In this document: one piece after another, positions 1-10,123 of the stretch
How the letters are laid out: each line of letters opens with the position of its first letter
Numbering within the stretch: position 1 is the stretch's first letter
From: Pseudomonadota bacterium
GTDB lineage: Bacteria > Pseudomonadota > Gammaproteobacteria > Xanthomonadales > Rhodanobacteraceae
Reading direction: 5' to 3'
DNA: 10,123 nt
NCBI GenBank assembly: GCA_021798675.1
Contig: JAJZGE010000026.1
Location: 1-10,123, forward strand
The notes under the pieces: model-generated
The model's database searches: none
What the model was told of the DNA's origin: nothing
Seen by the model: the letters and a program-made list of their open reading frames with translations, nothing else
Program-made: the position numbers and the translations under genes

Positions 1-70
1 ATGATCAACCGCTCCCCCTCCTTGCGCATGATCGCATCCTCGCCGGGCAACTCGAATTCGCGTGGAATCC
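1..70. repeat. Direct repeat, left copy (within vapB)
   Basis: Bases 1-70 recur at 2630-2698 in the same orientation with two substitutions and one missing C in a C-run. The similarity stops at GGAATCC/GGGATCC, the point where vapB codon 19 begins. The left copy continues off the window, so the full repeat is longer. It brackets the whole transposase relic and HAD/kinase operon. Confidence 0.9.
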
Positions 71-125
71 GCACAGCCTGATTGCGCCCGTTCTTGAAGA
101 GTTTCACGTGTCGTTGCGCGAGCAT
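1..125 (-). CDS. vapB: VapB/AbrB-type antitoxin, N-terminal part (runs off left edge)
   Basis: Read from an ATG at 125-123 this frame gives MLAQRHVKLFKNGRNQAVRI followed by PREFELPGEDAIMRKEGERL and II, open to the window edge. This is the typical N-terminus of VapB antitoxins with a SpoVT/AbrB swapped-hairpin DNA-binding fold (the F-K-N-G-R-N-Q-A-V-R-I-P core is the family signature). In such modules VapB binds its own promoter and neutralises a PIN-domain RNase VapC, usually encoded just downstream. Only about 41 codons are visible, so the toxin-binding half and any vapC would lie left of the window. The start is supported by a GGTGAGG ribosome site 5 bases upstream and by a promoter with an overlapping palindrome. 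A second, broken copy of this gene lies near 2580-2698. Family assignment is strong; whether the gene is intact beyond the edge cannot be seen. Confidence 0.85.
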   Translation of the reverse strand, partial: MLAQRHVKLFKNGRNQAVRIPREFELPGEDAIMRKEGERLI

Positions 126-130
126 GGCTG

Positions 131-180
131 CCTCACCAAAACATATGCCTAAGCATATGCCAACGAGCATGCAATGTCCA
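131..180 (-). promoter_or_regulatory. vapB promoter, autoregulatory operator and ribosome site
   Basis: On the minus strand a -35-like TGGACA (complement of 175-180) is followed after exactly 17 bases by a -10-like TATGCT (complement of 152-157). An 18-base near-perfect palindrome, two CATATG ends around a GC-rich centre (142-159, only the two central-pair positions mismatched), covers the -10. A GGTGAGG ribosome site (131-137) follows, then the vapB ATG at 125. Toxin-antitoxin operons of this family normally repress themselves by antitoxin binding to such palindromes; binding here is inferred, while the sequence arrangement is directly visible. Confidence 0.6.
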
Positions 181-298
181 CGCCTCTTGCGCTCCATGCC
201 CGGCGTCTTCAGCCGTGCCCCGGGGCCGGAAGCCCGAGCAGGCTGTTGAAGTACCGGAGGGGGCCGCGCGCAGGCGCTGCGCGATGAGCTGCAAGGCG

Positions 299-337
299 CC
301 CAAGCCAAGGCCAGGCTGGACGCCTGGCCTGCTTGGG
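299..337. repeat. Long inverted repeat (hairpin 1)
   Basis: The left arm CCCAAGCCAAGGCCAGG (299-315) pairs with CCTGGCCTGCTTGGG (323-337) around a 7-base loop, leaving only two unpaired bases in the left arm. There is no T-run on either side, so a classical Rho-independent terminator is not indicated. It sits in a gene-free, rearranged stretch beside a second hairpin carrying the same CCAAGC/GCTTGG core. It may be the end of a small mobile element, a REP-like unit or a processed RNA structure; the function is unknown. Confidence 0.6.
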
Positions 338-341
338 GCAA

Positions 342-388
342 GCAGCAGATAGGCCAAGCCATCGCACGATGCTTGGCTTATCTGCTGC
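342..388. repeat. Long inverted repeat (hairpin 2)
   Basis: GCAGCAGATAGGCCAAGC (342-359) is followed 9 bases later by its near-exact reverse complement GCTTGGCTTATCTGCTGC (371-388); the single difference would be a G-U pair in RNA. An AT/AT pair extends the stem past one bulged C. The stem of about 20 pairs with a small loop is too long to be chance. It lies only 4 bases from hairpin 1 and shares its CCAAGC core. Function is unknown; it resembles ends of small non-autonomous elements more than a terminator, since no T-run follows. Confidence 0.65.
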
Positions 389-429
389 CCGCGTCTTTGC
401 GCCCGTTGGAAGCGCTCCCTCCCAGGCGT

Positions 430-630
430 CGAGCACGCGCTGGCGGAAGCTGGGCAACCCCGCGCCGTTGTCCAGGCGGATCGCCTCGTGCCGGCGATGG
501 ACATCCACCAGCAGGCTCAGGATCCGCATCACATGGCGACTACGGGATGAAGGTGCCGCGCTCGATGCGCAGCGCCTCACGCTTGCCCTCGCCGATCACG
601 TTCGAGGTCCGGTGCGAACGGCCGTCGTGC
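430..630 (-). pseudogene. Relic of an IS3-type transposase (orfB, rve integrase core)
   Basis: Minus-strand translation gives RTSNVIGEGKREALRIE (about 613-560), then a TAG stop and a one-base frame change near 541, then SRHVMRILSLLVDVHRRHE and AIRLDNG (down to about 463). These match by eye the part of IS3-family OrfB that normally reads R-T-x-N-V-I-D-x-x-N-R-E-A-L-x-I-E ... A-I-R-L-D-N-G-P-E, which spans two of the DDE-type catalytic acidic residues. The first expected D (NVID) is G here, and the usual P-E after LDNG is replaced by A-G, followed by RQRVLDAW, as if an internal stretch were deleted. No complete transposase or clear terminal repeats are present, so it is a dead fragment. It shows that insertion sequences have shaped this stretch. 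Confidence 0.6.
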
Positions 631-895
631 CGCGATCGGGAAGAGGGGAACTCTCTCTCAGGAGTGAACTCGAATGGGTCCCATCGCGCTGGATGGAGGA
701 CGTATTCCACTTATACCCAAGGGAGGGAGCTGGACGTCACGGCTTCCTGCTGAGATGATTTCTGCAGAGGGAATACGCGCGGCCCCGCTCGTACCGGAGG
801 CCGCACCATCGGGAGCGCCTCGTGCACGATCTCTCCATCGTCTTTGCGCCCTAGCGACGCATCACACATGTCGAGGCCGCGCGGCGGGACGCACG
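631..895. other. Gene-free stretch upstream of the HAD/kinase operon
   Basis: Together with 181-298 and the hairpins this completes roughly 770 bases without an intact gene. The plus frame of the HAD gene stays open back to an ATG at 674, but the added 74 residues are low-complexity, Arg/Ala/Pro-rich and precede the conserved start MKAVVFDLDG, so they are not believed coding. The operon promoter should lie here, but I could not pick a convincing -35/-10 pair. Around 238-252 the sequence CAGGCTGTTGAAG resembles the outer end of some insertion sequences; this is weak. Confidence 0.4.
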
Positions 896-1594
896 ATGAA
901 GGCCGTTGTGTTCGATCTCGATGGAACCCTCGTCACAACCCGAGCCGAGTACCGATGCGACGTGGTTGGACGCGCGTTGCGTGACCTGCGGCGCCACGCC
1001 GATCAAGCCGCGATCGACGCCTTCCGGTTCGGAGCCGACCGTGATGCCATCATTCGGAGCAACTTCGAACTCGATCCCCCGCTGTTCTGGACGGCCTTCG
1101 CGCGATACGACCGACCTGATCGCAGAGCGCGTTGCACCACCGCGTTCGGTGACGTCGGCGCCCTTGCGAAATTGCGCCGCCTGGGCATCCAGCTCGGGGG
1201 CGTGACCAATGCGCCGTTGCATGTCGCCAGAACCGAGCTTGCCCTGCTCGGCGCGGACCATTTCGGAGCCGTCGTCGTCGCCGAAGCCGCACATCGCATC
1301 CGGCGGAAGCCCAGCCCCGACGGCATCCTCGCCTGTCTCGACGCCCTGGCTGTTCGCGCCGACCGAGCGTGGTTCGTCGGCAACGCCGCCGAGGATATCG
1401 AGGCCGCGCGCGCAGCATGTGTCGTCGAAGTCCACGTCGAACGCGACGAACACCCCCTGCACACCGGAGTGCGCCCGCCGCGCATGCACTGCGCGAACTC
1501 GTTGTGGCGACGCGCGACGAAGCAGGGTGCGGACGAACCGCCTTCTTTCCTGCCCTGGGGCGCTTCGCGCTCTGATTCGAGTCCTGACTCATGA
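896..1594 (+). CDS. HAD-superfamily hydrolase (probable small-molecule phosphatase)
   Basis: The 232-residue product starts MKAVVFDLDGTLV, the HAD motif I with nucleophile D7 and acid/base D9. Motif II is GVTNAP (T104), motif III the lysine of RKPSPDG (K138), and motif IV is FVGNAAEDIEAA, where the usual first Asp is Asn163 while D167 is kept. A cap region of about 70 residues between motifs I and II fits subfamily I phosphatases such as phosphoglycolate-phosphatase-like enzymes. It would remove phosphate from a small cytoplasmic metabolite; the substrate cannot be read from sequence. The last 40 residues are poorly conserved-looking and Arg/Ser-rich. The start is set by motif I at the very N-terminus; the preceding GCGGGA is a weak ribosome site. 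The stop overlaps the next gene's start as ATGA (1591-1594), so translation is probably coupled to the kinase. Confidence 0.85.
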   Translation: MKAVVFDLDGTLVTTRAEYRCDVVGRALRDLRRHADQAAIDAFRFGADRDAIIRSNFELDPPLFWTAFARYDRPDRRARCTTAFGDVGALAKLRRLGIQLGGVTNAPLHVARTELALLGADHFGAVVVAEAAHRIRRKPSPDGILACLDALAVRADRAWFVGNAAEDIEAARAACVVEVHVERDEHPLHTGVRPPRMHCANSLWRRATKQGADEPPSFLPWGASRSDSSPDS

Positions 1595-2598
1595 TTCATG
1601 CGCATCCATCCACTGCGGCGGATGTCGTCGCGATCAGAAACCTGATCACGGTCGAATACGGCATGCCCGTCGTGGGTATCGAGCCTGTCGTCCTCGGGCT
1701 CAACCGTACCTTCGAGGTGCGCACAGTCACCGGGACCCATTTCTTCCGGCTTTGCCGCAACAGCGGACGAACCCTCGCAGAGATTCAGGCCGAGGCAACC
1801 CTTACCCATGGGGTACGCGAGGATGCAAGGCTCGGTGTTGCGCGCGCCATGCCGACCACGGGCGGCGCATACGTGGTCGAATGCCGGTGGCCTGCCGACG
1901 GCACTCGCCATGGCCTGTTGTTCCAGCGAGCCCGGGGGCGAGAGGCGAGTACGTCGGATGCGGATCTCCGGCTCATCGGCAATGCGCTCGCCCGATTGCA
2001 CGCTCAGGGCCAGCTCGAAGGTCTGGCGCCTCGGCGCCTGGTGGGCGCTCCGCCTCCCGACCATGAATGGCTCCGGCGTCTCGGCCAACTGGCTGGAGCA
2101 TCGACACAAGGCATCGAACGTATCGGGACACAGCTGGCGCACCTGCGTCGAAGCATGGTTGCGGGAGGCCCTCGCGGCTTTTGCCATGGAGATTTCCTGT
2201 GTGGGAACCTGCGAATCGCCGATGGCCGCGTGACCCTGTTCGACTTCGATGACTGCGGAGTCGGGCCCCAGTGGTACGACCTGGCCACCATGGGCTGGTG
2301 GATCGAGACCTCGCTGGCGCCACGGCGTTGCGCCGCGGCGTGGTCAGCGCTGGTGCATGCCTACTTCAACGAGGTCGATCCCGGTCCGGTCTTCGCCGAC
2401 TCGATCACCCTGTTGGTGACGGAAAACGAAGTTCGTTCGACCCGATTCCTTGTCGACCATTGCGATCTCGCACCCGAGCTATGGGCTCGGGTCGCACATT
2501 CCCTGGATTCGGTGACCGAGCGAGCCTGCAACGGACAGTTGCATATCCTTTCCGAGGGTCGTGCTCGGCGCGAGCCCTGCGGCCAGGGTCGCCGGTAA
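1591..2598 (+). CDS. Phosphotransferase of the aminoglycoside-phosphotransferase fold (PF01636-like)
   Basis: The 335-residue protein has the eukaryotic-kinase-like fold of the APH/choline-kinase/SrkA group. LGLNRTFEVRT (35-45) is the nucleotide-loop strand, followed by FFRLCR and EIQAEATL, which match the F-x-L-R-x-x-R and E-I-x-x-E pattern of the family. FCHGDFLCGN (197-206) carries catalytic D201 and N206, and LFDFDDCGVGP (216-226) carries metal-binding D218. It should transfer the ATP gamma-phosphate to a hydroxyl of a small molecule; the acceptor (aminoglycoside, sugar, homoserine-type or protein Ser) cannot be decided. It begins inside the HAD stop codon (ATGA), forming a kinase/phosphatase pair. 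The last dozen codons (EPCGQGRR, then TAA at 2596) run antisense into a vapB relic, so its natural C-terminus may have been replaced at a rearrangement junction. Role in resistance is possible but not shown. Confidence 0.85.
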   Translation: MIHAHPSTAADVVAIRNLITVEYGMPVVGIEPVVLGLNRTFEVRTVTGTHFFRLCRNSGRTLAEIQAEATLTHGVREDARLGVARAMPTTGGAYVVECRWPADGTRHGLLFQRARGREASTSDADLRLIGNALARLHAQGQLEGLAPRRLVGAPPPDHEWLRRLGQLAGASTQGIERIGTQLAHLRRSMVAGGPRGFCHGDFLCGNLRIADGRVTLFDFDDCGVGPQWYDLATMGWWIETSLAPRRCAAAWSALVHAYFNEVDPGPVFADSITLLVTENEVRSTRFLVDHCDLAPELWARVAHSLDSVTERACNGQLHILSEGRARREPCGQGRR

Positions 2599-2698
2599 GG
2601 CGAGCAGGGATTGTCGCGGCGCCGGCTCGATGATCAACCGCTCCCCTCCTTGCGCATGATCGCATCCTCGCCAGGCAACTCGAATTCGCGTGGGATCC
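2580..2698 (-). pseudogene. vapB: Broken vapB-like antitoxin copy
   Basis: On the minus strand RIPREFELPGEDAIMRKEG is followed by a frameshift from one lost base, which gives SG-stop. In the corrected frame it continues RLIIEPAPRQSLLALPATLA, the usual middle of this antitoxin family. The first 18 codons, the start, the operator and the promoter seen at the left copy are missing: sequence right of 2698 is unrelated. No vapC follows on the left, where the phosphotransferase gene begins instead. It is therefore a dead duplicate. Its far end near 2580 is estimated, because the similarity to the family fades there. Confidence 0.75.
2630..2698. repeat. Direct repeat, right copy (within vapB relic)
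   Basis: Same-orientation partner of bases 1-70, about 96 percent identical by hand alignment. It carries four instead of five C at 2641-2646, and G-to-A and A-to-G changes near 2673 and 2694. Homologous recombination between the two copies would delete the HAD/kinase operon. Confidence 0.9.
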
Positions 2699-2736
2699 TG
2701 TCGGAAGCTTCAGCGGAAGAGACCCACGCAGGCGCA

Positions 2737-3666
2737 TCAACCAGCGTTCCATGCGCGCTCCCGCGCCCCGGGAACATCGAGCGCGCCAGCCGCGGCGCGC
2801 AGGCGGGCGACGTCGCGCGCCGGGGCTTCGCCGAAGTGCCGGCGGTACTCGCGGCCGAACTGCGACGGGCTTTCGTAGCCCACGCGCATGGCGGCGGTCG
2901 CGACGTCGAGGTCCTGCACCAGCATCAGGCTGCGCGCCTCCTGCAGCCTGAGCTGTTTCTGGAATTGCAACGGTGTCATCGAGGTCACGGCGCGGAAGTG
3001 CTCGTAGAGGCTCGACGCGCTCATGCCCGCCTGCGCGGCAAGCTGCTCGATGCCGTAGCGCTCGCGGTAGTGCTTCCCGATCCAGGCCATGACGCGACCG
3101 ATCCGCGCCACCCGTCCCTGGCTGAATCCGATCTGGCGCATCCTGGCGCCGTCGGGGCCGGTGAACAGGCGATAGACGATCTCCTGCTCGGCGAGCGGCC
3201 CCAGCACGGGCAGAGCGGCCGGTTCGTCCAGCAGGCGCACCAGGCGCAAGGCCGCCTCGAGCAGGGCCGGGCTGGCATCGGACACCGTCTTGCCCTCGGG
3301 CGGGCATGGGGCTTCCGGCGGCGGCGGCACGCGCAGCGACAGGCTCCCCAGCATGACCGGGTCGAAGTCGAGATACATGCAGAGATAGGGTCTGTGCGGC
3401 GTCGCCTCCATCACGCGGCCGATGGCCGGCAGATCGTGGGTCACCAACCCATGGCGTCCCGCCGCGTAGCGCAGCACCCGGCCGCCCAGCGTGACGTCCT
3501 TGCGCCCCTGCACGACCAGGCACAGCTGGGGTCGGTACACGTTCGGCAACGGCAAGGTGACGGTGGAGGACCGCACCAGGGTCAGGCGCTCGATGGGGGT
3601 GCCATGAAATCCATCTCCGGGGAGATGCCGGGCCATCACGGAGGCGATTTCGCTCAAGGTATCCAT
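2737..3666 (-). CDS. AraC-family transcriptional regulator
   Basis: The product has 309 residues. Residues about 20-175 match the AraC_N type sensor domain (TPIERLTLVRSS, YRPQLCLVVQGRKDV, THDLPAIGRVMEATP are typical of this subgroup, as in YqhC-like regulators). The C-terminal third holds the two helix-turn-helix motifs: IEQLAAQAGMSASSLYEHF (206-224) and VATAAMRVGYESPSQFGREY (255-274), then FGEAP. It is a cytoplasmic DNA-binding regulator. It is divergent from an aldo/keto reductase 160 bases away, a common pairing in which the regulator activates the reductase in response to reactive aldehydes or similar compounds; that target is inferred. The ATG at 3666 has no clear ribosome site but directly abuts an inverted repeat. 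Effector unknown. Confidence 0.92.
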   Translation of the reverse strand: MDTLSEIASVMARHLPGDGFHGTPIERLTLVRSSTVTLPLPNVYRPQLCLVVQGRKDVTLGGRVLRYAAGRHGLVTHDLPAIGRVMEATPHRPYLCMYLDFDPVMLGSLSLRVPPPPEAPCPPEGKTVSDASPALLEAALRLVRLLDEPAALPVLGPLAEQEIVYRLFTGPDGARMRQIGFSQGRVARIGRVMAWIGKHYRERYGIEQLAAQAGMSASSLYEHFRAVTSMTPLQFQKQLRLQEARSLMLVQDLDVATAAMRVGYESPSQFGREYRRHFGEAPARDVARLRAAAGALDVPGARERAWNAG

Positions 3667-3692
3667 GGCGCGAATGATCGCAAATGCGCGCC
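3667..3692 (-). promoter_or_regulatory. Inverted repeat abutting the araC-type start codon
   Basis: GGCGCG (3667-3672) and CGCGCC (3687-3692) pair, with one mismatch and two further pairs inside, directly next to the regulator's ATG. In the minus-strand transcript it would fold into a hairpin where a ribosome site is expected. It could be an autoregulatory operator or a translation-limiting leader structure. Function is inferred. Confidence 0.35.
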
Positions 3693-3706
3693 CGTGCTGC
3701 CATGCC

Positions 3707-3728
3707 GATCCTGGAGTTCCGGAGGATC
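3707..3728. promoter_or_regulatory. Small inverted repeat in the divergent promoter region
   Basis: GATCCT (3707-3712) and AGGATC (3723-3728) are separated by ten bases, midway between the divergent AraC-type regulator and the reductase. The one-turn spacing would suit a regulator dimer, but AraC proteins usually bind direct repeats, so this is only a candidate operator. I found no convincing -35/-10 pair nearby. Confidence 0.25.
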
Positions 3729-3814
3729 AGGCAAACATTCCCGAACATCGCGCTCACGCCCGCCAGCGATCGCGGCCCACAATCCTGGCTTCGCAACCCT
3801 GCCGCGGCACAACC

Positions 3815-3820
3815 GGAGAA
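3815..3820 (+). promoter_or_regulatory. Ribosome binding site of the aldo/keto reductase
   Basis: GGAGAA sits 5 bases before the ATG at 3826 and decides this start. The frame is open far upstream (to 2611) but there it runs antisense to the AraC-type regulator and is not coding. Confidence 0.7.
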
Positions 3821-3825
3821 GCTCC

Positions 3826-4785
3826 ATGACCACCGATCATCCTCCCGCGCGCGGCTTCGCGCTGGGCACCTGGGCCTGGGGCGACAGCGGCGAGACGGGC
3901 GACGGCCAATTCGGAACCCGTCTGACCCGGGGCGACCTGGAGCAAGTCGTCGACAAGGCCCGAGCGGCCGGCTTCACCCTGTGGGACACCGCGCGGGTCT
4001 ACGGCATGGGGCGCTCCGAGGCACTGCTCGGAGAACTGCTGGGGGATGGCCCCCGGGAAAGCTACGAGATCTCCACCAAGTTCACCCCGCAGATCGCGGG
4101 CGACGGCGAGGATCCGATGCGCGAGATGCTGGAAAGAAGCCTGGCGACGCTCGGTGTCGAGTACGTCGATCTCTACTGGATCCACAACCCGGCCGACGTG
4201 CGCCGGTGGACACCGTGCCTGATCCCGCTGCTGCAAAGCGGGAAGGTCCGGCGTGTCGGCGTTTCCAACCACAACTTGGCCGAGATCAGGCTCGCCGACC
4301 GGATCCTCGGCGAAGCCGGTTTCCGGATCGAAGCCGTCCAGAACCACTACAGCCTGCTGTATCGCCAGTCCGAACAGGCCGGGATCCTCGATCACTGCCG
4401 CGCCGCGGGCATTCCCTTTTTCGCCTACATGGTGCTCGAGCAAGGTGCCTTGACCGGCAGCTACGATGCCGACAGGCCCTTGCCGGCGGGCAGCAAGCGC
4501 GCGCAGAGCTACACCGCCATGCTGCCGAAGCTCAAGCCCCTGACGGACGGGCTCGCCTCGATCGCCCGCGACCAGGGCGCCGAGGCGGCGGACGTCGCGA
4601 TGGCCTGGGCCCTCGCCAAGGGTGCGACGCCGATCGTCGGCGTCACCAGGCCCCGGCATGTCGAGGGGCTGGTCCGCGCTCGCGGCCTCGGGCTCACGCC
4701 CGAGCACGTCGCGGAGCTGGAGGCTCTCGCCGACTCCGCCGAGGTGAACACGCGCGGCTGGTGGGAGCGCGATATGGTCGTCTGA
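3826..4785 (+). CDS. Aldo/keto reductase family oxidoreductase
   Basis: The 319-residue protein is of normal family length. The catalytic tetrad is visible: D54 and Y59 in LWDTARVYGMG, K85 in ISTKF, H120 in LYWIHNP. GVSNHNLAEI and the NHYSLLYR segment are the typical beta-strand ends of the (alpha/beta)8 barrel, and VGVTRPRHVEG near 271-281 is the NADP(H)-binding part. It should reduce aldehydes or ketones, or oxidise the corresponding alcohols, in the cytoplasm; the substrate is not readable. YGMGRSE and the overall pattern are closest to the YajO/potassium-channel-beta-like group. It is divergent from the AraC-family regulator and probably controlled by it. The start is fixed by the GGAGAA ribosome site and by the barrel start GFALGTWAWG. 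Confidence 0.93.
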   Translation: MTTDHPPARGFALGTWAWGDSGETGDGQFGTRLTRGDLEQVVDKARAAGFTLWDTARVYGMGRSEALLGELLGDGPRESYEISTKFTPQIAGDGEDPMREMLERSLATLGVEYVDLYWIHNPADVRRWTPCLIPLLQSGKVRRVGVSNHNLAEIRLADRILGEAGFRIEAVQNHYSLLYRQSEQAGILDHCRAAGIPFFAYMVLEQGALTGSYDADRPLPAGSKRAQSYTAMLPKLKPLTDGLASIARDQGAEAADVAMAWALAKGATPIVGVTRPRHVEGLVRARGLGLTPEHVAELEALADSAEVNTRGWWERDMVV

Positions 4786-4920
4786 AGCTCGGCGCGCCTT
4801 GGTGCGCAAGACGCCGGCACCACGCGCGGCGTTGCTGCCCTGCGAGGCCCGCGCACGCCGCGGCCCGCAAGGGTCTACGATCGACGCATGGCCGGTCCCG
4901 CAACTCGCCAGGAGCCCACG

Positions 4921-5334
4921 ATGTCCGAGCACAGCGCCAGCCCCCGCCACGAGCGGGTCCACGGCCCGCAATCCATCGACGAACACCTGCGCGCGCAGCT
5001 GCCGCGCTGGTCGCGCGATGGCGGGTGCATCCAGCGCCGCTACCGCACCGCGGGCTGGAAGTCCAGCGTGCTGGCGGTGGGGGCCATCGCCCACCTGGCG
5101 GAAGCCGCGTGGCATCACCCGGATCTGTCGGTCGGCTACGACCATGTGGTGGTGCGCCTGAGCACCCATAGCGCGGGCGGCGTGACCGACAAGGACTTCG
5201 AGCTCGCCGCGCGCATCGAGCAACTGCTCACCTGGAACCCCGGGCGCCAACCCGGCAGCGCCCTCGAGGGCACGCCCGACGATCCGCGCCACGCCTATCT
5301 GCCGCCGGACGAGGCGCCGAAGACCGCGCGCTGA
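4921..5334 (+). CDS. Pterin-4a-carbinolamine dehydratase-like protein (PCD/DCoH family)
   Basis: The 137-residue protein contains the family signature AWHHPDLSVGYDHVVVRLST (63-82) followed by HSAGGVTDKD. H65, H66, H83 and D92 keep the spacing of the catalytic residues of mammalian PCD (61, 62, 79, 88). The family dehydrates 4a-hydroxytetrahydrobiopterin, recycling the pterin cofactor of aromatic amino acid hydroxylases, and some members act in molybdenum-cofactor or other pterin chemistry. A Tyr (Y73) stands where many members have Trp. A proline-rich tail of about 32 residues after NPGRQPG makes it longer than the usual 95-120 residues. AGGAG (4910-4914) supports the ATG at 4921; an earlier in-frame ATG at 4888 lacks a ribosome site. 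No hydroxylase gene is next to it, so its pathway is open. It is convergent with the dikinase gene. Confidence 0.88.
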   Translation: MSEHSASPRHERVHGPQSIDEHLRAQLPRWSRDGGCIQRRYRTAGWKSSVLAVGAIAHLAEAAWHHPDLSVGYDHVVVRLSTHSAGGVTDKDFELAARIEQLLTWNPGRQPGSALEGTPDDPRHAYLPPDEAPKTAR

Positions 5335-5353
5335 GCCCGCCGGACACGCGGGC
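5335..5353. terminator. Possible weak hairpin terminator
   Basis: GCCCGC (5335-5340) pairs with GCGGGC (5348-5353), directly after the dehydratase stop and within the 92-base gap between convergent genes. No T-run follows on either strand, so it is a weak candidate that could serve either transcript. Confidence 0.3.
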
Positions 5354-5426
5354 ATGCGCCACGACGGCCAGGCCGCTTCCAGGCTTCGACCCGCGCGGTC
5401 GTGCAGGCTCGCCGTGCGTCGGGGCT

Positions 5427-7955
5427 TCAGTCGTCGATCCGCTGCACGCGCCCCTGCGCGCCGTCCATGCGGACTCGAGTTCCCGTGCGCAGCAGATCCA
5501 ATGCCCGACGCACACTCATGACCGCCGGAAGTCCGAGCTCCCGGGCGGTCACCGCGCCATGGGACAGGGGCCCCCCGCTTTCCGCGATCACGCCCGCGCT
5601 GCGATAGAACAGCGGTGTCCAGGCCGGGTTCGTGGTTCGCGCCACGAGGATGGCTCCCGAGGGAAAGTCCGCGAAGTCCTCCGGGCCGCGCACGCAGAAG
5701 ACCCGGGCCTCGGCGATGCCCGCGCTTGCGCCCAGTCCCTGCAGCACCCGGGCGTCTTGATCCAGCACATCGGCGACGCCCAGTTCCCACTCCGGAGTGC
5801 GCATTCGAGCGGCGTCGTAGGCACGTCGATGCTCGGCCACCGCGGCCGCGACCGGCGCGAAGTCTGCGTCGGCGACGGCCTTTCCGAAGATCGCAACCGG
5901 GCAGAAATACACATCGTCGGCCCGGTCCAGCGTCCCCTGCTCCACCAGGCGGCGGCCGATCGCGGCCAGGCCGCGGCGGAACGGAAGGGTCAGCCGCGTG
6001 GTCTGATAGTGCTCCAGGTCGTCCAGCGCGGTGTAGGCGCGCGCCAGGCGAATCACCTCGCGCAGGAGGTAGCGCAACTCGGCCGGCGCCGCCCCGAGCA
6101 GATCGTGTTCCACGGCCGCCATGGAAACCTGGAGCTCGTGCAGGCGCTGCTCGTCGGCCTGCTCGGGCTGCGCCGCCAAGCCCGCGATCTGCGTGAGCAC
6201 GACGTGCGGCGCCTCGATCCAGGTCGGATGGTAGGCATCGAAATCGACCTCGCGATGGCCGTGCCGCTGCACGAAGTCGCGGAACCGACTGGCGAAGTCC
6301 GGATGCTCGGCAAGCTCCGGCCACCCTGGCCGCCGGGCGGCACGCAGCACAAGCTGCGCTCCGCCCGGCAACGACCGTGCGACGCGCGCCAGTTCGGCCA
6401 TCTCGCGGTTGATCTGTCCTGTCACGGTATCCGTCACGGCCAACAGGCGCTCCACCATCGCTCGGACCTCGGCATCGCCGGCCTCGGTCACCAGCCCGAC
6501 CAGGCGTCCGAGCCATCCGTGCAGGGCGCGCTGGGTCAGGGAAATGGCGATGTTGGGCAGGAAGTAGCGACGGCCGAGATCACGCACGCGCAGCACGTAG
6601 TCCCATAGCTCGGCGATCGACAGGTTGTCGAGGGGTTCGGCCATCAGCGCGCCGATGCTCAGCAGGTAGGCATCCAGATCCCGCGCCCAGCGCTGCGGCA
6701 GGTCGACCACCCAGGCGTAGCGCCTGCTCAACGTGGGCAACGCGGCGCGCAATGCGGGCAGGTCTCCAAGCAGATCGTCCGGGAGCCGCCCACCATACAG
6801 TTCCACGGCGTTCTGGTTGCCGTAGACGTATCCGTCCTTCACCGCGAACCATTTGTCGTGAAAGGGTGGCAACCCCATCAGCGCGAAGGAATGGTTGAGC
6901 GACGCATGGAATGCCTCCTCGACCAGATCCCAGGTCATCGGAGTGACCACGTTGGGAAAGCGTTCGGCGGACTCGTCGCGCGTCCAGCGCGCCGGAATTC
7001 GGGTCAGCGGGCGCGATTGGAGCAGGAACAGGCGCTCCCCTTCGTAGGCCCATTCGATGTCCTGGGGAAATCCGAACAACTTCTCGGCACGCAAGGCCAG
7101 GTCCGCAACCTCGGAGCAGGCCGCGGCGCTCAGGGACGCCCGCAGGCGTCGCGGCCGACCGAGCTGCACGCGTCGCGTCCCCCGCGCGTGCGGCACCCAG
7201 GCCCTGGGCTTGTCCGCGACACGCTGCTCGATCACCGGGAGCAGGCCGTCGTCGGCCGCGCGTCGCGAGATCCGGAATTCGTCGACCGCCTCCTCGCCGC
7301 CGACCACGCTCTCGCCCAGGCCAAACGCGGCATTGATCAGCACGGTGTCGAGGCGGCCGCGCACCGGATCGATGCTGAAGGCGACGCCAGCAGCGTCGTC
7401 GGCCGACACTCGGACCAGGCGCTGCACCACGACCGCCATCGCGGCTTCCATGTGGCATGCTCCCAGACGCTCGCGGTACTCCAGGGCGTGGCGATTCCAC
7501 AGCGACATGTAGCAGGCTCGCATGGCCTCGGCGACTTCGTCGACCCCGCAGCGATTCAGGGACGTATCGTGCAGACCGGCGAACGCGGCCCCGGCCGAAT
7601 CCTCCTGGGTGGCCGACGAGCGTACGGCCAACCCCTGTCCGAGCAAGGATTCGGCCCGAAGTGCCGCCTCCAGTTCGCACAGCAGCCCCTCGGGCAGCGG
7701 CTGCCCGGCCATCAGTTGCTGCACGGTCCGGCTGAGCGCTTCGGCGTCGCCCGCATGGCGCTCCAGCGCCGAGGCGATGCCCCGCTGCATGGGCCGCGCG
7801 AACTCGCGGTAGCCATGGCTGGTGATGATGACGCCGGGCGGCACGGCAAGCGTCGCGGCCGCCCGGGCAAGACCGGCCCCCTTGCCTCCGGAGAGGTCCA
7901 CGCGTCGTGCCTCGGGCGCGTGGAACGAAAAGACCCGCCGTTCGTGATCGCTCAT
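5427..7955 (-). CDS. PEP-synthase/rifampin-phosphotransferase-like dikinase
   Basis: The 842-residue product starts with a PPDK-type ATP-grasp domain (about 1-320): SGGKGAGLARA (K25), LAVRSSATQEDSAG (R112), GVAFSIDPVRG, GLGESVVGGEE and DIEWAYEGERLFLLQSRPLT. A middle region with FPNVVTPMTWDLVEEA follows. The C-terminus is the swivelling phosphohistidine domain, with GGPLSHGAVTARELGLPAV and catalytic H799. The PEP/pyruvate-binding barrel of PEP synthase is absent. This layout matches rifampin phosphotransferase, YvkC and the ATP-using domains of PigC-type prodigiosin ligases: ATP phosphorylates the His, which passes phosphate to a bound acceptor. The acceptor is unknown. The start ATG at 7955 overlaps the PAP2 stop (ATGA) and has GGGGGA upstream, so it is last in a three-gene operon. 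The frame stays open far upstream only because of the high GC content. Confidence 0.88.
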   Translation of the reverse strand: MSDHERRVFSFHAPEARRVDLSGGKGAGLARAAATLAVPPGVIITSHGYREFARPMQRGIASALERHAGDAEALSRTVQQLMAGQPLPEGLLCELEAALRAESLLGQGLAVRSSATQEDSAGAAFAGLHDTSLNRCGVDEVAEAMRACYMSLWNRHALEYRERLGACHMEAAMAVVVQRLVRVSADDAAGVAFSIDPVRGRLDTVLINAAFGLGESVVGGEEAVDEFRISRRAADDGLLPVIEQRVADKPRAWVPHARGTRRVQLGRPRRLRASLSAAACSEVADLALRAEKLFGFPQDIEWAYEGERLFLLQSRPLTRIPARWTRDESAERFPNVVTPMTWDLVEEAFHASLNHSFALMGLPPFHDKWFAVKDGYVYGNQNAVELYGGRLPDDLLGDLPALRAALPTLSRRYAWVVDLPQRWARDLDAYLLSIGALMAEPLDNLSIAELWDYVLRVRDLGRRYFLPNIAISLTQRALHGWLGRLVGLVTEAGDAEVRAMVERLLAVTDTVTGQINREMAELARVARSLPGGAQLVLRAARRPGWPELAEHPDFASRFRDFVQRHGHREVDFDAYHPTWIEAPHVVLTQIAGLAAQPEQADEQRLHELQVSMAAVEHDLLGAAPAELRYLLREVIRLARAYTALDDLEHYQTTRLTLPFRRGLAAIGRRLVEQGTLDRADDVYFCPVAIFGKAVADADFAPVAAAVAEHRRAYDAARMRTPEWELGVADVLDQDARVLQGLGASAGIAEARVFCVRGPEDFADFPSGAILVARTTNPAWTPLFYRSAGVIAESGGPLSHGAVTARELGLPAVMSVRRALDLLRTGTRVRMDGAQGRVQRIDD

Positions 7956-8839
7956 CGCAGTTCCCCCATGGCCGTCCCGCGAGCCAGCACAAGGGCCGCG
8001 CTGCCCAGCACGATCCCGGCGAGCACGTCGATGCCGTAGTGGTAGCGCAGGTACACGGTCGCCAGACAGATACCCGCCAGGATCGGCGCCAGCACCACCG
8101 CCACCATCCGATACGCGCGACGCCTCCGCCCCTCCAACCAGAAGAATCCCGTCACGTACCAGGCAATGCCGACGTGCAGGCTGGGAAACACATCCATGCC
8201 GGTGGCTCCATCGGCGACGGCGGCGCCGAGAAAGGCGCTGATCGGCCCGCCCGTGGCGACGGCGGGGATCTCCTCGGGAAAGGCCAGGTAGGGCCCGGCA
8301 GCCGGAACCAGCAGATAGCCCGCATAGCCGAGCAGATAGGCGAGGGACAGCCCGAGAAACCAGCGTCTGGACGAGGCCATGCGCCGTCGCACGCTGAACC
8401 AGACGACGGGCAGCACCACCAGGGGGTAGAAGCACAGATAGGCCAGGCTGAGGATGTCCGACACGCTTGCCCGTTCGAGCGGGAGCAGGCGCTGCGGCAG
8501 GCTGAGCCCGCCCCACAGCCATCGATCCAGTCGAAGCAGCATGGCATCGGCCGGGTGATGGATCCACTGCTGCTGGATGGCCTGGAACAAGGGGAAGGTG
8601 CTCCAGGAGGCCACGAATTGCAAGGTACCCTGCCAGTGCGCGAATGCACCTTCGCGCCGCGCCATGCTCAGACTGCAGACGGCGCACGCGGCCAGCGAGA
8701 CGACCGATACGATGCGCAACGGCCCGGCGTGGCGCATGGCGCCATCGCCGAACCACAGCGCGTAGCTGCCCAAGCCCCAGATCAGCCAGAGTTCCAGCAC
8801 GAACAACCATCCGATGCATCGAGTCCGGGTCTCGTTCAC
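7952..8839 (-). CDS. PAP2-family membrane phosphatase/phosphotransferase (PAP2_3, Aur1/Ipt1-like)
   Basis: The 295-residue integral membrane protein has about six hydrophobic segments (about 10-30, 42-58, 128-149, 160-178, 222-235, 246-263, with a last one 270-287). Motif-like elements are LLVPAAGPY (176-184), FPSLHVG (218-224, H222) and YLRYHYGIDVLAG (263-275, H267, D271). These are the C1-C3 motifs of the inositol-phosphoryl-transferase-like PAP2_3 group, which lacks the K-x6-R-P of classical PAP2. Such enzymes remove or move a phosphate or phospho-headgroup of a lipid on the outer face of the inner membrane. The start is GTG at 8839, immediately after the acyltransferase TGA, with GGAG 6 bases upstream. 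The stop overlaps the dikinase start. Exact lipid substrate cannot be told. Confidence 0.87.
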   Translation of the reverse strand: MNETRTRCIGWLFVLELWLIWGLGSYALWFGDGAMRHAGPLRIVSVVSLAACAVCSLSMARREGAFAHWQGTLQFVASWSTFPLFQAIQQQWIHHPADAMLLRLDRWLWGGLSLPQRLLPLERASVSDILSLAYLCFYPLVVLPVVWFSVRRRMASSRRWFLGLSLAYLLGYAGYLLVPAAGPYLAFPEEIPAVATGGPISAFLGAAVADGATGMDVFPSLHVGIAWYVTGFFWLEGRRRRAYRMVAVVLAPILAGICLATVYLRYHYGIDVLAGIVLGSAALVLARGTAMGELR

Positions 8840-9991
8840 TCAAGGCTCCGGCCAGCGCCACCATCCATAAGCCGCCACGGCGGCCATCGGCACCGCGGTC
8901 TGCGGGTACCGGACGGCAAGAATTGCCAGGATCGGCACCCACATCACGGCCGCGGCGGAACCGGCGAGCATGCGGCGCAGCGTGACCGTGTGGCGCGTCG
9001 TGGCCCTTGCCCCGGCCGCCAGCCCCGCCAGCAGGATCGGGGCCAGCAGCAGCGCGGCAAGCGCGACGCACGGCCACTCCCAGGCGCGCGGCGGCTTTGG
9101 TCGGGGCCGTGGCTCGACCTCCTCCGACGCCATGGGCCGCGCCTGCGTCTCGCAGGCCTTGAAGGCCAGCGCATAGGATCTGCCATCGCCGCTGCGCGCC
9201 GCGGCACGACGCTCGACGCGCTCGAAGCTCGCGGTGTCGGTGCAGTTCACCGACACCGCATCAAGCGCGGCGGCCAGCACGGCCTCGGTCTGTGCAACCC
9301 ACGCCCCGAATTCGCGCCCCGCCCGCTCGGGCACGAGGATCGGTGCGCCGACCAGCAATTCGGCGCGAGCGCGGAATCGATCCGGATGGCGATAGAACAG
9401 TCCCACCGGGACAATTTCCAGCGGCGCCATTCCCGATTCGCTCGCCAGGCAGGCGATACGGGCAGCGCCTGGCGCGTAGCGCAGTGGCTTGGGGCCCCAT
9501 GAACTCGTTCCCTCCGGGAACATCGCCACACAGCCCCCCCGCTCCAGACAGGACAGCGCGGCTTCCACCGGAGACGCGAAACGCCGCGCGTCCAGGCCCA
9601 GGCGTTGGCGATCCTTGTCCCGTACCACCGGGATTCCCGCGAACATGAGGCGCAGCAGGGGATTGCGCAGCCATTGCACGGACAGCAGGAAGCGAGCCTC
9701 GGGAAAGGCTGCGAGCACGAGATAGCCGTCGATGGCTCCGTTGCGATGACTGCACAGGACGAGCCGACGCGCCGCTGCGGGCGGGCGTACGCCCACGACG
9801 CGGACGCGAAAGTAGAAATTGCGCAGAAGCAAGGCCACCGATCGGTGCCACAGGGGCGTTGTCGGAGGACGGCCGCGCTTGCGCGCGCAAGCGCGCGTGG
9901 TGGAGTCTGGCACGTTGAGCCTGTCGACGGCCGTGGTGGCGAAGCCAACGCCACGGCCCACGATTTGATTGGCTGGGATCGTATGGGGCAT
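8840..9991 (-). CDS. PlsC-like lysophospholipid/glycerophosphate acyltransferase with C-terminal membrane segments
   Basis: Starting at the ATG at 9991 the product has 383 residues. LCSHRNGAIDGYL (79-91) is motif I, but with five residues between H82 and D88 instead of four. GIPVVRDKDRQ is motif II, AMFPEGTSSWG (156-166) motif III, and IVPVGLFY motif IV. It should transfer an acyl chain to a hydroxyl of a lyso-phospholipid or related acceptor at the membrane. Residues about 307-327 and 342-378 are strongly hydrophobic, an added C-terminal membrane region. The start is uncertain: the frame is open to the window edge, the ATG lacks a clear ribosome site, and family similarity begins only near PLWHRSVALLL (47-57), so GTG starts further in, or one beyond the edge, are possible. 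First gene of the operon; its stop abuts the PAP2 start. Confidence 0.85.
   Translation of the reverse strand: MPHTIPANQIVGRGVGFATTAVDRLNVPDSTTRACARKRGRPPTTPLWHRSVALLLRNFYFRVRVVGVRPPAAARRLVLCSHRNGAIDGYLVLAAFPEARFLLSVQWLRNPLLRLMFAGIPVVRDKDRQRLGLDARRFASPVEAALSCLERGGCVAMFPEGTSSWGPKPLRYAPGAARIACLASESGMAPLEIVPVGLFYRHPDRFRARAELLVGAPILVPERAGREFGAWVAQTEAVLAAALDAVSVNCTDTASFERVERRAAARSGDGRSYALAFKACETQARPMASEEVEPRPRPKPPRAWEWPCVALAALLLAPILLAGLAAGARATTRHTVTLRRMLAGSAAAVMWVPILAILAVRYPQTAVPMAAVAAYGWWRWPEP
9874..9895. repeat. Perfect 22-base GC palindrome in the acyltransferase 5' end
   Basis: Bases 9874-9895 are exactly self-complementary, with the core GCGCTTGCGCGCGCAAGCGC. It lies within codons of the poorly conserved N-terminal part (TRACARKRGR) upstream of the conserved acyltransferase region. 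It could be a cruciform or operator if the true start is downstream of it. Function is unknown. Confidence 0.55.
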
Positions 9992-10080
9992 CGAATCGCC
10001 CGCGCCGGATTGAGGGCTTTCGCCAGCCGGGGTCCTGGCCGGCGCGACGAAGAAGTGCTCCGAGCTCGCTGCGCGTACGA

Positions 10081-10098
10081 TGCGAGGCTTCCCTCGCA
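10081..10098. repeat. Short perfect hairpin near the right edge
   Basis: TGCGAGG (10081-10087) and CCTCGCA (10092-10098) form a 7-pair stem with a CTTC loop, about 90 bases before the acyltransferase start. No T-run is seen. It may belong to the end of an upstream minus-strand gene or to the operon leader. Between it and 9992 I found no clear promoter. Confidence 0.35.
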
Positions 10099-10123
10099 AC
10101 GCCCGTACCCCATGCAGCCAGAC

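Follow-up and report, generated by a model that had tools for sequence, protein, structure and literature searches.

We found that three adjacent genes in a 10,123-nucleotide stretch of DNA from a bacterium of the Rhodanobacteraceae (contig JAJZGE010000026.1, positions 1–10,123; hereafter the window) form a set that is conserved over several bacterial phyla, very probably works together as one functional unit and most likely builds or remodels an undescribed membrane lipid. The three genes lie on the minus strand, as do all of their features given below, and open reading frame (ORF) analysis placed them in the order ACYL (9991–8840), PAP (8839–7952) and DIK (7955–5427). ACYL encodes a PlsC-fold acyltransferase of 383 aa read from an ATG at 9991 (assigned from Pfam PF01553, a family alignment and hydropathy), PAP an Aur1-like PAP2_3 membrane protein of 295 aa with a GTG start, and DIK an 842-aa dikinase of the rifampin phosphotransferase (RPH) type. 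An earlier sequence-only reading had described three minus-strand genes joined by an abutment and an overlap, and both junctions could be read in the sequence: the ACYL stop and PAP start abut with a gap of 0 (CCT TGA/GTG AAC, 8837–8842), and the PAP stop and DIK start share a 4-nt ATGA (GCG ATGA GCG, 7952–7955). The span of 5427–9991 is correct provided that ACYL starts at ATG 9991; its frame is open upstream to a TTG at 10099 and on to the end of the window. A contig from a metagenome-assembled genome (MAG), JAJZUV010000016.1 (locus L001), matched the whole window at 98.9%.

Conservation of the trio was assessed by scanning a genome collection with a DIK alignment in one run, which returned 125 relatives, the best 80 loci being kept, and by running hidden Markov models (HMMs) built from ACYL, PAP and DIK on these 80 loci with a neighbour distance limit of 3.3 kb. 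Contig ends truncated five loci (L031, L054, L073, L074 and L075), which were excluded from the count, leaving 75. All three genes were present on the same strand, with ACYL and PAP upstream of DIK, in 56 of these uncut loci, while 17 had ACYL before DIK without an orthologous PAP (14 Actinomycetota and the Verrucomicrobiota L065, L077 and L078) and two, both from Cardiobacterium (L040 and L042), had neither ACYL nor PAP within 3.3 kb of DIK. The neighbourhood check anchored on the dikinase that the sequence-only reading had proposed therefore showed the trio to be kept far past close relatives, and chance adjacency was rejected on the strength of this conservation over several phyla. The loci occurred in Pseudomonadota, Actinomycetota and Verrucomicrobiota; those from Acidobacteriota (L055 and L080) and Campylobacterota (L070) came solely from MAGs, so that binning errors are possible there. 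One of the 56 (L080, Acidobacteriota) had the gene order PAP-ACYL-DIK and linkage therefore outlasts rearrangement. Among the remaining 55 loci of usual order, the gap between ACYL and PAP was ≤30 nt in 54 (the exception being L036), and that between PAP and DIK was −50 to +30 nt in 51. Start codons were chosen by rule (the PAP start near the ACYL stop; for DIK and ACYL, the closest ATG preceding the HMM match), which biases these gaps towards tightness but leaves order and strand unaffected. Mirror-tree correlations between the genes were r = 0.94–0.96 over 50 loci (excluding L001, L017, L051, L062, L064 and L067) and were given little weight because they were not controlled for species relatedness. 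Gene fusions were not seen, as the best 120 of 1885 DIK relatives carried no extra domain beyond the three described below, and the best 120 of 253 ACYL relatives carried no domain except PF01553. A search of plasmids, which did not extend to phages or viral contigs, gave no record with one place covering 80% of DIK (best place 31.7% identity over 79%), and plasmid-borne spread was not adopted as an explanation. Overall, a functional link among ACYL, PAP and DIK is well supported.

The dikinase is rare and patchy. One class yielded it in 3 of the 321 genomes sampled, and the phylum sample of L050 in 3 of 288; it was detected in 11 of 145 genomes of a Verrucomicrobia family (that of G680) and in 21 of 60 genomes of the Brevibacterium sandarakinum family. 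In the last of these, DIK (E ≤ 1e-100) and ACYL (E ≤ 1e-30) were found in the identical 21 genomes. In the class sampled with 321 genomes, two of the three DIK carriers, and no other genome of the sample, had ACYL at E < 1e-100; ten more genomes, which had no DIK, carried weaker relatives of ACYL (E 6e-31 to 8e-41). The third DIK genome of that class (G296, locus L114) lacked ACYL at E ≤ 1e-30, and a search for PAP, confined to a 15-kb piece, found none; its DIK copy (2214–4739), read by eye, had the catalytic His replaced by Tyr and had lost D645 and E648. With both the catalytic residue and the acceptor motif altered, this single copy appears inactive. In Cardiobacterium hominis, DIK stood alone, and an Rce1-like gene, ACYL and PAP lay together elsewhere in the genome (L117). 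Both Cardiobacterium genomes (L040 and L042) carried a PAP orthologue elsewhere. In C. valvarum (L040; genome G692) this stray PAP had an in-frame TAG and no ACYL nearby (L116), and L040 contained only an ACYL-like match of 78 bits ~9.4 kb from DIK; the pathway may be decaying in this species. In the DIK tree, Actinomycetota rows were nested inside Pseudomonadota rows with modest support at the joining branch (83/96), which suggests horizontal transfer.

The dikinase itself matched PF01326 (238.8 bits, cut-off 27) and PF00391 (76.7 bits, cut-off 23.1). It comprises an ATP-grasp domain (Pfam PPDK_N, residues 20–323; 6987–7898), a middle acceptor domain, and a C-terminal swivelling phosphohistidine domain (PF00391, residues 764–835; 5451–5666) containing the catalytic His799 (SHGA; codon at 5559–5561), which is invariant in the family alignment and aligns with His825 of RPH-Lm. 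This domain order is common to RPH and the wider small-molecule dikinases (HpeHI and the phenylphosphate synthase PpsAB), and GGKG, RSS and SHGA-type motifs are found in both RPH and DIK. The source databases label DIK relatives as ‘phosphoenolpyruvate synthase’, ‘pyruvate,water dikinase’ or ‘rifampicin phosphotransferase’, and DIK scored below the cut-offs of all 25 NCBIfam families shown. Identity as phosphoenolpyruvate synthase (PpsA) was rejected, with a TIGR01418 score of 276.9 bits against a cut-off of 739.75 and a His domain that is C-terminal in DIK; in phosphoenolpyruvate synthase the His domain is central and a pyruvate domain is C-terminal (PMC4844700). Identity as PigC or RedH was likewise rejected (247.7 and 271.1 bits against cut-offs of 1300 and 1350). 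These prodiginine ligases have an RPH-type architecture in common with DIK; a PigC-like reference keeps the acceptor-site Arg (RREATR) and adjoins a PigD gene, whereas the window has no such partner.

Rifampin phosphotransferase required closer comparison, as DIK matched the structure of RPH-Lm (5hv1) over its full length. Such a match would be expected if DIK were an RPH-like enzyme that inactivates a drug or other xenobiotic and merely happens to lie beside lipid genes. However, DIK scored 280.6 bits against the RPH equivalog NF041857 (cut-off 999), and in a tree a branch with support 100/99 separated the 38 family rows from both RPH rows, although the references were long-branched. The sequence-only reading had proposed this tree as a check, and the dikinase indeed stood apart from known rifampin phosphotransferases. 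Unlike RPH, moreover, DIK forms its own clade, carries Asp in place of the acceptor-site Arg and is linked over phyla to ACYL and usually to PAP. Identity as RPH was rejected on score, clade and acceptor site, and we consider a detoxifying role very improbable. By the tests made, the trio is neither a known resistance nor a known pigment enzyme set.

The Arg to Asp change lies in the acceptor site. In RPH, Arg666 is required for rifampin phosphorylation and the Arg666-Glu667 pair is catalytic (PMC4844700). The position of R666-E667-x-x-K670 in RPH-Lm carries D645-D646-x-E648-H649 in DIK (DDLEH, 6009–6023; alignment, codons checked), and D645 was present in 38 of 38 family rows as against Arg in all eight other superfamily rows. 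The motif was complete in 120 of 120 relatives among the matches listed and was matched in 109 of 118 entries of fetched DNA. The nine misses comprised two entries without DIK (L116 and L117), one degenerate gene (L083/L114), one interrupted gene (L086/L087/L115) and one gene in which Ile precedes the DD but the rest of the motif is retained (L106/L111). Of the 59 invariant positions in the middle domain, 16 are charged or His, including R332, which adjoins the position of Gln337, and D645, D646, E648 and H649, a cluster at the phosphate-transfer site that was not seen in the references.

Loss of the phosphate-binding Arg, with Asp in place of RPH Arg666, might instead mean that DIK no longer acts as a small-molecule kinase and is a phosphocarrier, protein kinase or sensor that controls the two membrane enzymes. 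VadK, a kinase derived from PPDK, is reported to have a new role (PMC13400623). Against such a regulatory function, the middle domain and the ATP-grasp domain were conserved to the same degree (mean majority fractions of 0.606 and 0.584; His domain 0.753), which suggests a bound substrate, and the intact motif in every one of the listed relatives points in the same direction. A regulatory role is therefore improbable in our judgement.

The catalytic motifs that the sequence-only reading had considered readable were found at their codons in all three proteins, DDLEH and the SHGA His799 of DIK among them. ACYL matched PF01553 (30.3 bits, cut-off 23) and contains motif I as HRNGAID (H82 to D88, HX5D; 9728–9748, codons checked), with H82, N84 and D88 invariant in 29 alignment rows, as well as EGTSS (residues 160–164; 9500–9514, codons checked), with E160 and S163 invariant. 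Hydropathy indicated C-terminal hydrophobic (membrane) stretches at about residues 303–331 and 340–362. PlsC was the only solved structure reached by the ACYL profile at E ≤ 0.01 (E 0.0087). Motif I of 1-acylglycerol-3-phosphate acyltransferases has HX4D spacing, in contrast to the HX5D of the ACYL family with its invariant H82 and D88, and ACYL scored 19 bits against the TIGR00530 model of these enzymes (cut-off 102.95).

PAP matched PF14378 (PAP2_3; 76.4 bits, cut-off 27) and contains PSLH (residues 219–222; 8174–8185, invariant in the family alignment) and RYHYGID (residues 265–271; 8027–8047), codons being checked for both, with H222, H267 and D271 invariant in 32 alignment rows. Aur1 was the top profile and fold match over the full length of PAP, including the N-terminal helices beyond the common PAP2 core. 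PAP is bacterial and shares 14% identity with the Aur1 inositol phosphorylceramide synthase in the structural alignment, and it was rejected as a bacterial phosphoinositol dihydroceramide synthase (NF052609, 43.3 bits against a cut-off of 480). The sequence-only reading had called this protein a PAP2_3 phosphatase or Aur1-like enzyme; the Aur1 likeness held over the full length, and a headgroup transferase would be a likelier function than a phosphatase.

Some lineages that lack an orthologous PAP carried other genes beside ACYL or DIK. In L077 a different PAP2_3 gene lay directly upstream of ACYL, in L074 another PAP2_3 gene lay directly downstream of DIK, and in two Verrucomicrobia loci (L065 and L078) a sulfotransferase gene (PF13469) lay directly upstream of ACYL. 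No PAP was found in the L065 and L078 genomes at E ≤ 1e-8; because the same search also missed the PAP2_3 genes of L074 and L077, this result rules out no more than an orthologous PAP. All 11 DIK genomes of the Verrucomicrobia family had a capping gene beside DIK or ACYL (seven PAP, two other PAP2_3 and two sulfotransferase), with ACYL off the contig end in G796 and DIK interrupted in G510 and G754. In Actinomycetota, the profiles used detected no capping gene next to DIK. DIK and ACYL are probably the core of the system, since both persist without an orthologous PAP, and the replacements suggest a third step in which an end group of interchangeable chemistry is added.

Genes flanking the trio were annotated with Pfam, which covered only part of the neighbours. 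Aas and LplT recycle lysophospholipid. Aas (>300 bits) occurred in the flanks of six of the 80 loci (L045, L046, L049, L061, L062 and L067), compared to about 0.25 expected from 1.14 Mb of flanking sequence if each 4.5-Mb genome has one copy; the estimate is rough, since its copy number comes from 19 chosen genomes, L045 and L046 appear to be related, and the comparison lacked matched random loci as a control. LplT-like transporters were found in 10 of 80 loci, several of them low-scoring. In L049, Aas and LplT exceeded their NCBIfam equivalog cut-offs and formed a same-strand run of Aas, LplT, a papain-like gene, ACYL, PAP and DIK. A YiiX-like C92 gene preceded ACYL in L050 and L072 (Pfam), L062 (27.4 bits, cut-off 27) and L056 (similarity), with an LplT-like gene between it and ACYL in L072. 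An LCAT-like gene preceded ACYL in L020, with relatives in L015 and L037; an Rce1-like gene did so in L036 and L117; a PLD-type gene scoring under the cardiolipin-synthase cut-off lay near L049, L055 and L062; and an AMP-binding acyl ligase gene was upstream of ACYL in four Brevibacterium loci. Most loci, including the window, had none of these neighbours, which are optional and lie outside the core. In Staphylococcus aureus, YiiX-like and CAAX-protease-like proteins jointly N-acylate lipoproteins; the YiiX-like (C92) and Rce1-like neighbours fall in the same broad classes as the LnsA and LnsB of this system (PMC7387801).

Two further conserved proteins were encoded upstream of ACYL. One, of 556–570 aa (L049, 6051–7763; L057, 1805–3475), had no Pfam match in L049 and contains HGGHFG and NCSG stretches that by eye are papain-like. 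The other, of 131 aa and immediately upstream in five Brevibacterium loci (L021, L023, L024, L027 and L028), had a 17-nt overlap with ACYL, given the start chosen, with a sub-threshold Polyketide_cyc2 hint in one of two tested.

These neighbours bear on whether the trio makes a natural product, with DIK acting like PigC or RedH as an ATP-dependent ligase that couples two building blocks via a phosphorylated intermediate and ACYL and PAP tailoring an acylated product. The architecture that DIK has in common with these enzymes would accord with this, as would a patchy distribution fitting horizontal transfer; on the other side stand the scores of DIK, far under both cut-offs. When ORFs were clustered, the only clusters of at least nine loci that recurred in more than one phylum, besides the trio, were an ABC-ATPase-containing one (15 loci; domain seen in L068), which belongs to a very widespread family and lies mostly on the opposite strand, and Aas/LplT (nine loci). 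No carrier-protein or synthase-type family recurred over phyla in this clustering, and most of the neighbours in the partially annotated set were either of phospholipid type or isolated cases. The single-lineage neighbours, which did not recur, included a 2-oxoadipate dioxygenase-like protein (L113), a protein kinase (L012) and an FGE-sulfatase-like protein (L048); a 2392-aa frame in L060 had no Pfam match. An acylated secondary product, which the sequence-only reading had offered as an option, found no support here, and a natural-product pathway is an outside prospect.

More serious, but still unlikely, is the alternative that the trio salvages ordinary phospholipids: the Aur1-like protein would take headgroups off phospholipids and leave diacylglycerol, DIK as a soluble di- or monoacylglycerol dikinase would remake (lyso)phosphatidate, and ACYL would re-acylate it. 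The PlsC fold of ACYL and the Aas and LplT genes at several loci are consistent with such recycling, and only 16 of the 59 positions that are invariant in the middle domain are charged or His. In RPH the cleft that binds rifampin is largely hydrophobic (PMC4844700), and the fold can thus hold a greasy acceptor. Nonetheless, R332 and the cluster of D645, D646, E648 and H649 fit a polar acceptor better, and DIK and ACYL persist with a sulfotransferase in the place of PAP or without an orthologous PAP.

We favour a small lipid-modifying pathway, a reading that we hold to be evenly balanced: a small alcohol would be phosphorylated by DIK, acylated by ACYL and capped by the PAP2_3 protein or its substitute. 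For its substrates, step order, topology and product we propose the following. DIK would load the β-phosphate of ATP onto His799, and the His domain would then swivel to the middle domain, where a small polar alcohol, perhaps a polyol or amino-alcohol, would accept the phosphate on its hydroxyl. ACYL, whose C-terminal helices may anchor it in the membrane, would add a fatty acyl chain to the phosphorylated alcohol, just as PlsB/PlsC-type enzymes acylate glycerol phosphates. Finally, the Aur1-like PAP2_3 protein would exchange or remove the phosphate, moving a phospho-headgroup from a phospholipid; a sulfotransferase or a different PAP2_3 protein would serve as the capping enzyme in certain lineages. 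Lysophospholipid would be a by-product or acyl source, handled in some lineages by the Aas/LplT, YiiX-, LCAT- or Rce1-like neighbours.

This scheme resembles the Kennedy-type glycerolipid route of glycerol kinase, PlsB/PlsC and PAP in pairing a kinase with an acyltransferase for a phosphorylated alcohol and an enzyme that works on lipid phosphate, but differs in that the kinase is a dikinase, the headgroup enzyme is Aur1-like and all three genes lie in one operon. The weakest part of our reading is the order of steps, which is modelled on glycerolipid synthesis. The sequence-only reading had placed the trio in one pathway, perhaps for a lipid with an unusual phosphate or headgroup. A single pathway is well supported by linkage, while an altered headgroup is indicated only indirectly, by the Aur1-like fold, the sulfotransferase at two loci and the phospholipid-remodelling neighbours at a minority of loci. 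No paper describing the trio was found in searches of open-licence PMC papers, which is weak evidence of absence. Somewhat short of an even chance, in our estimate, is the broader proposal that a horizontally spread trio with an Asp-site dikinase for an unusual alcohol, a membrane-anchored HX5D acyltransferase and interchangeable caps (Aur1-like, other PAP2_3 or sulfotransferase) makes a new class of bacterial lipid.

The rest of the window contains genes of other kinds. Past DIK, on the opposite strand, are genes for a pterin-4a-carbinolamine dehydratase (4888–5334, plus strand) and an aldo-keto reductase (~3823–4785, plus strand), which together with an AraC-type regulator on the minus strand occupy 2737–5334. 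At 674–2598 (plus strand), a HAD-type hydrolase frame is followed by an APH-type small-molecule kinase gene with a 4-nt overlap (1591–1594), and this pair is possibly a second small operon. The 99 bp at 2600–2698 matched a second place on the L001 contig (17874–17973) at 93% and form a dispersed repeat, and a short frame at 3–362 (minus strand) resembles a VapB/AbrB-type antitoxin by eye.

Genera bearing DIK among the best 80 loci include Cardiobacterium, Proteus, Providencia and Brevibacterium. If the proposed lipid role is true, bacteria of several phyla, these genera among them, make or remodel an undescribed lipid. We know of no dikinase in lipid synthesis, and this enzyme class would then gain a place there. 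The Arg to Asp switch provides a simple sequence mark for the DIK subfamily, and the sulfotransferase in the place of PAP leads to a clear prediction for the end group of the product that can be tested.

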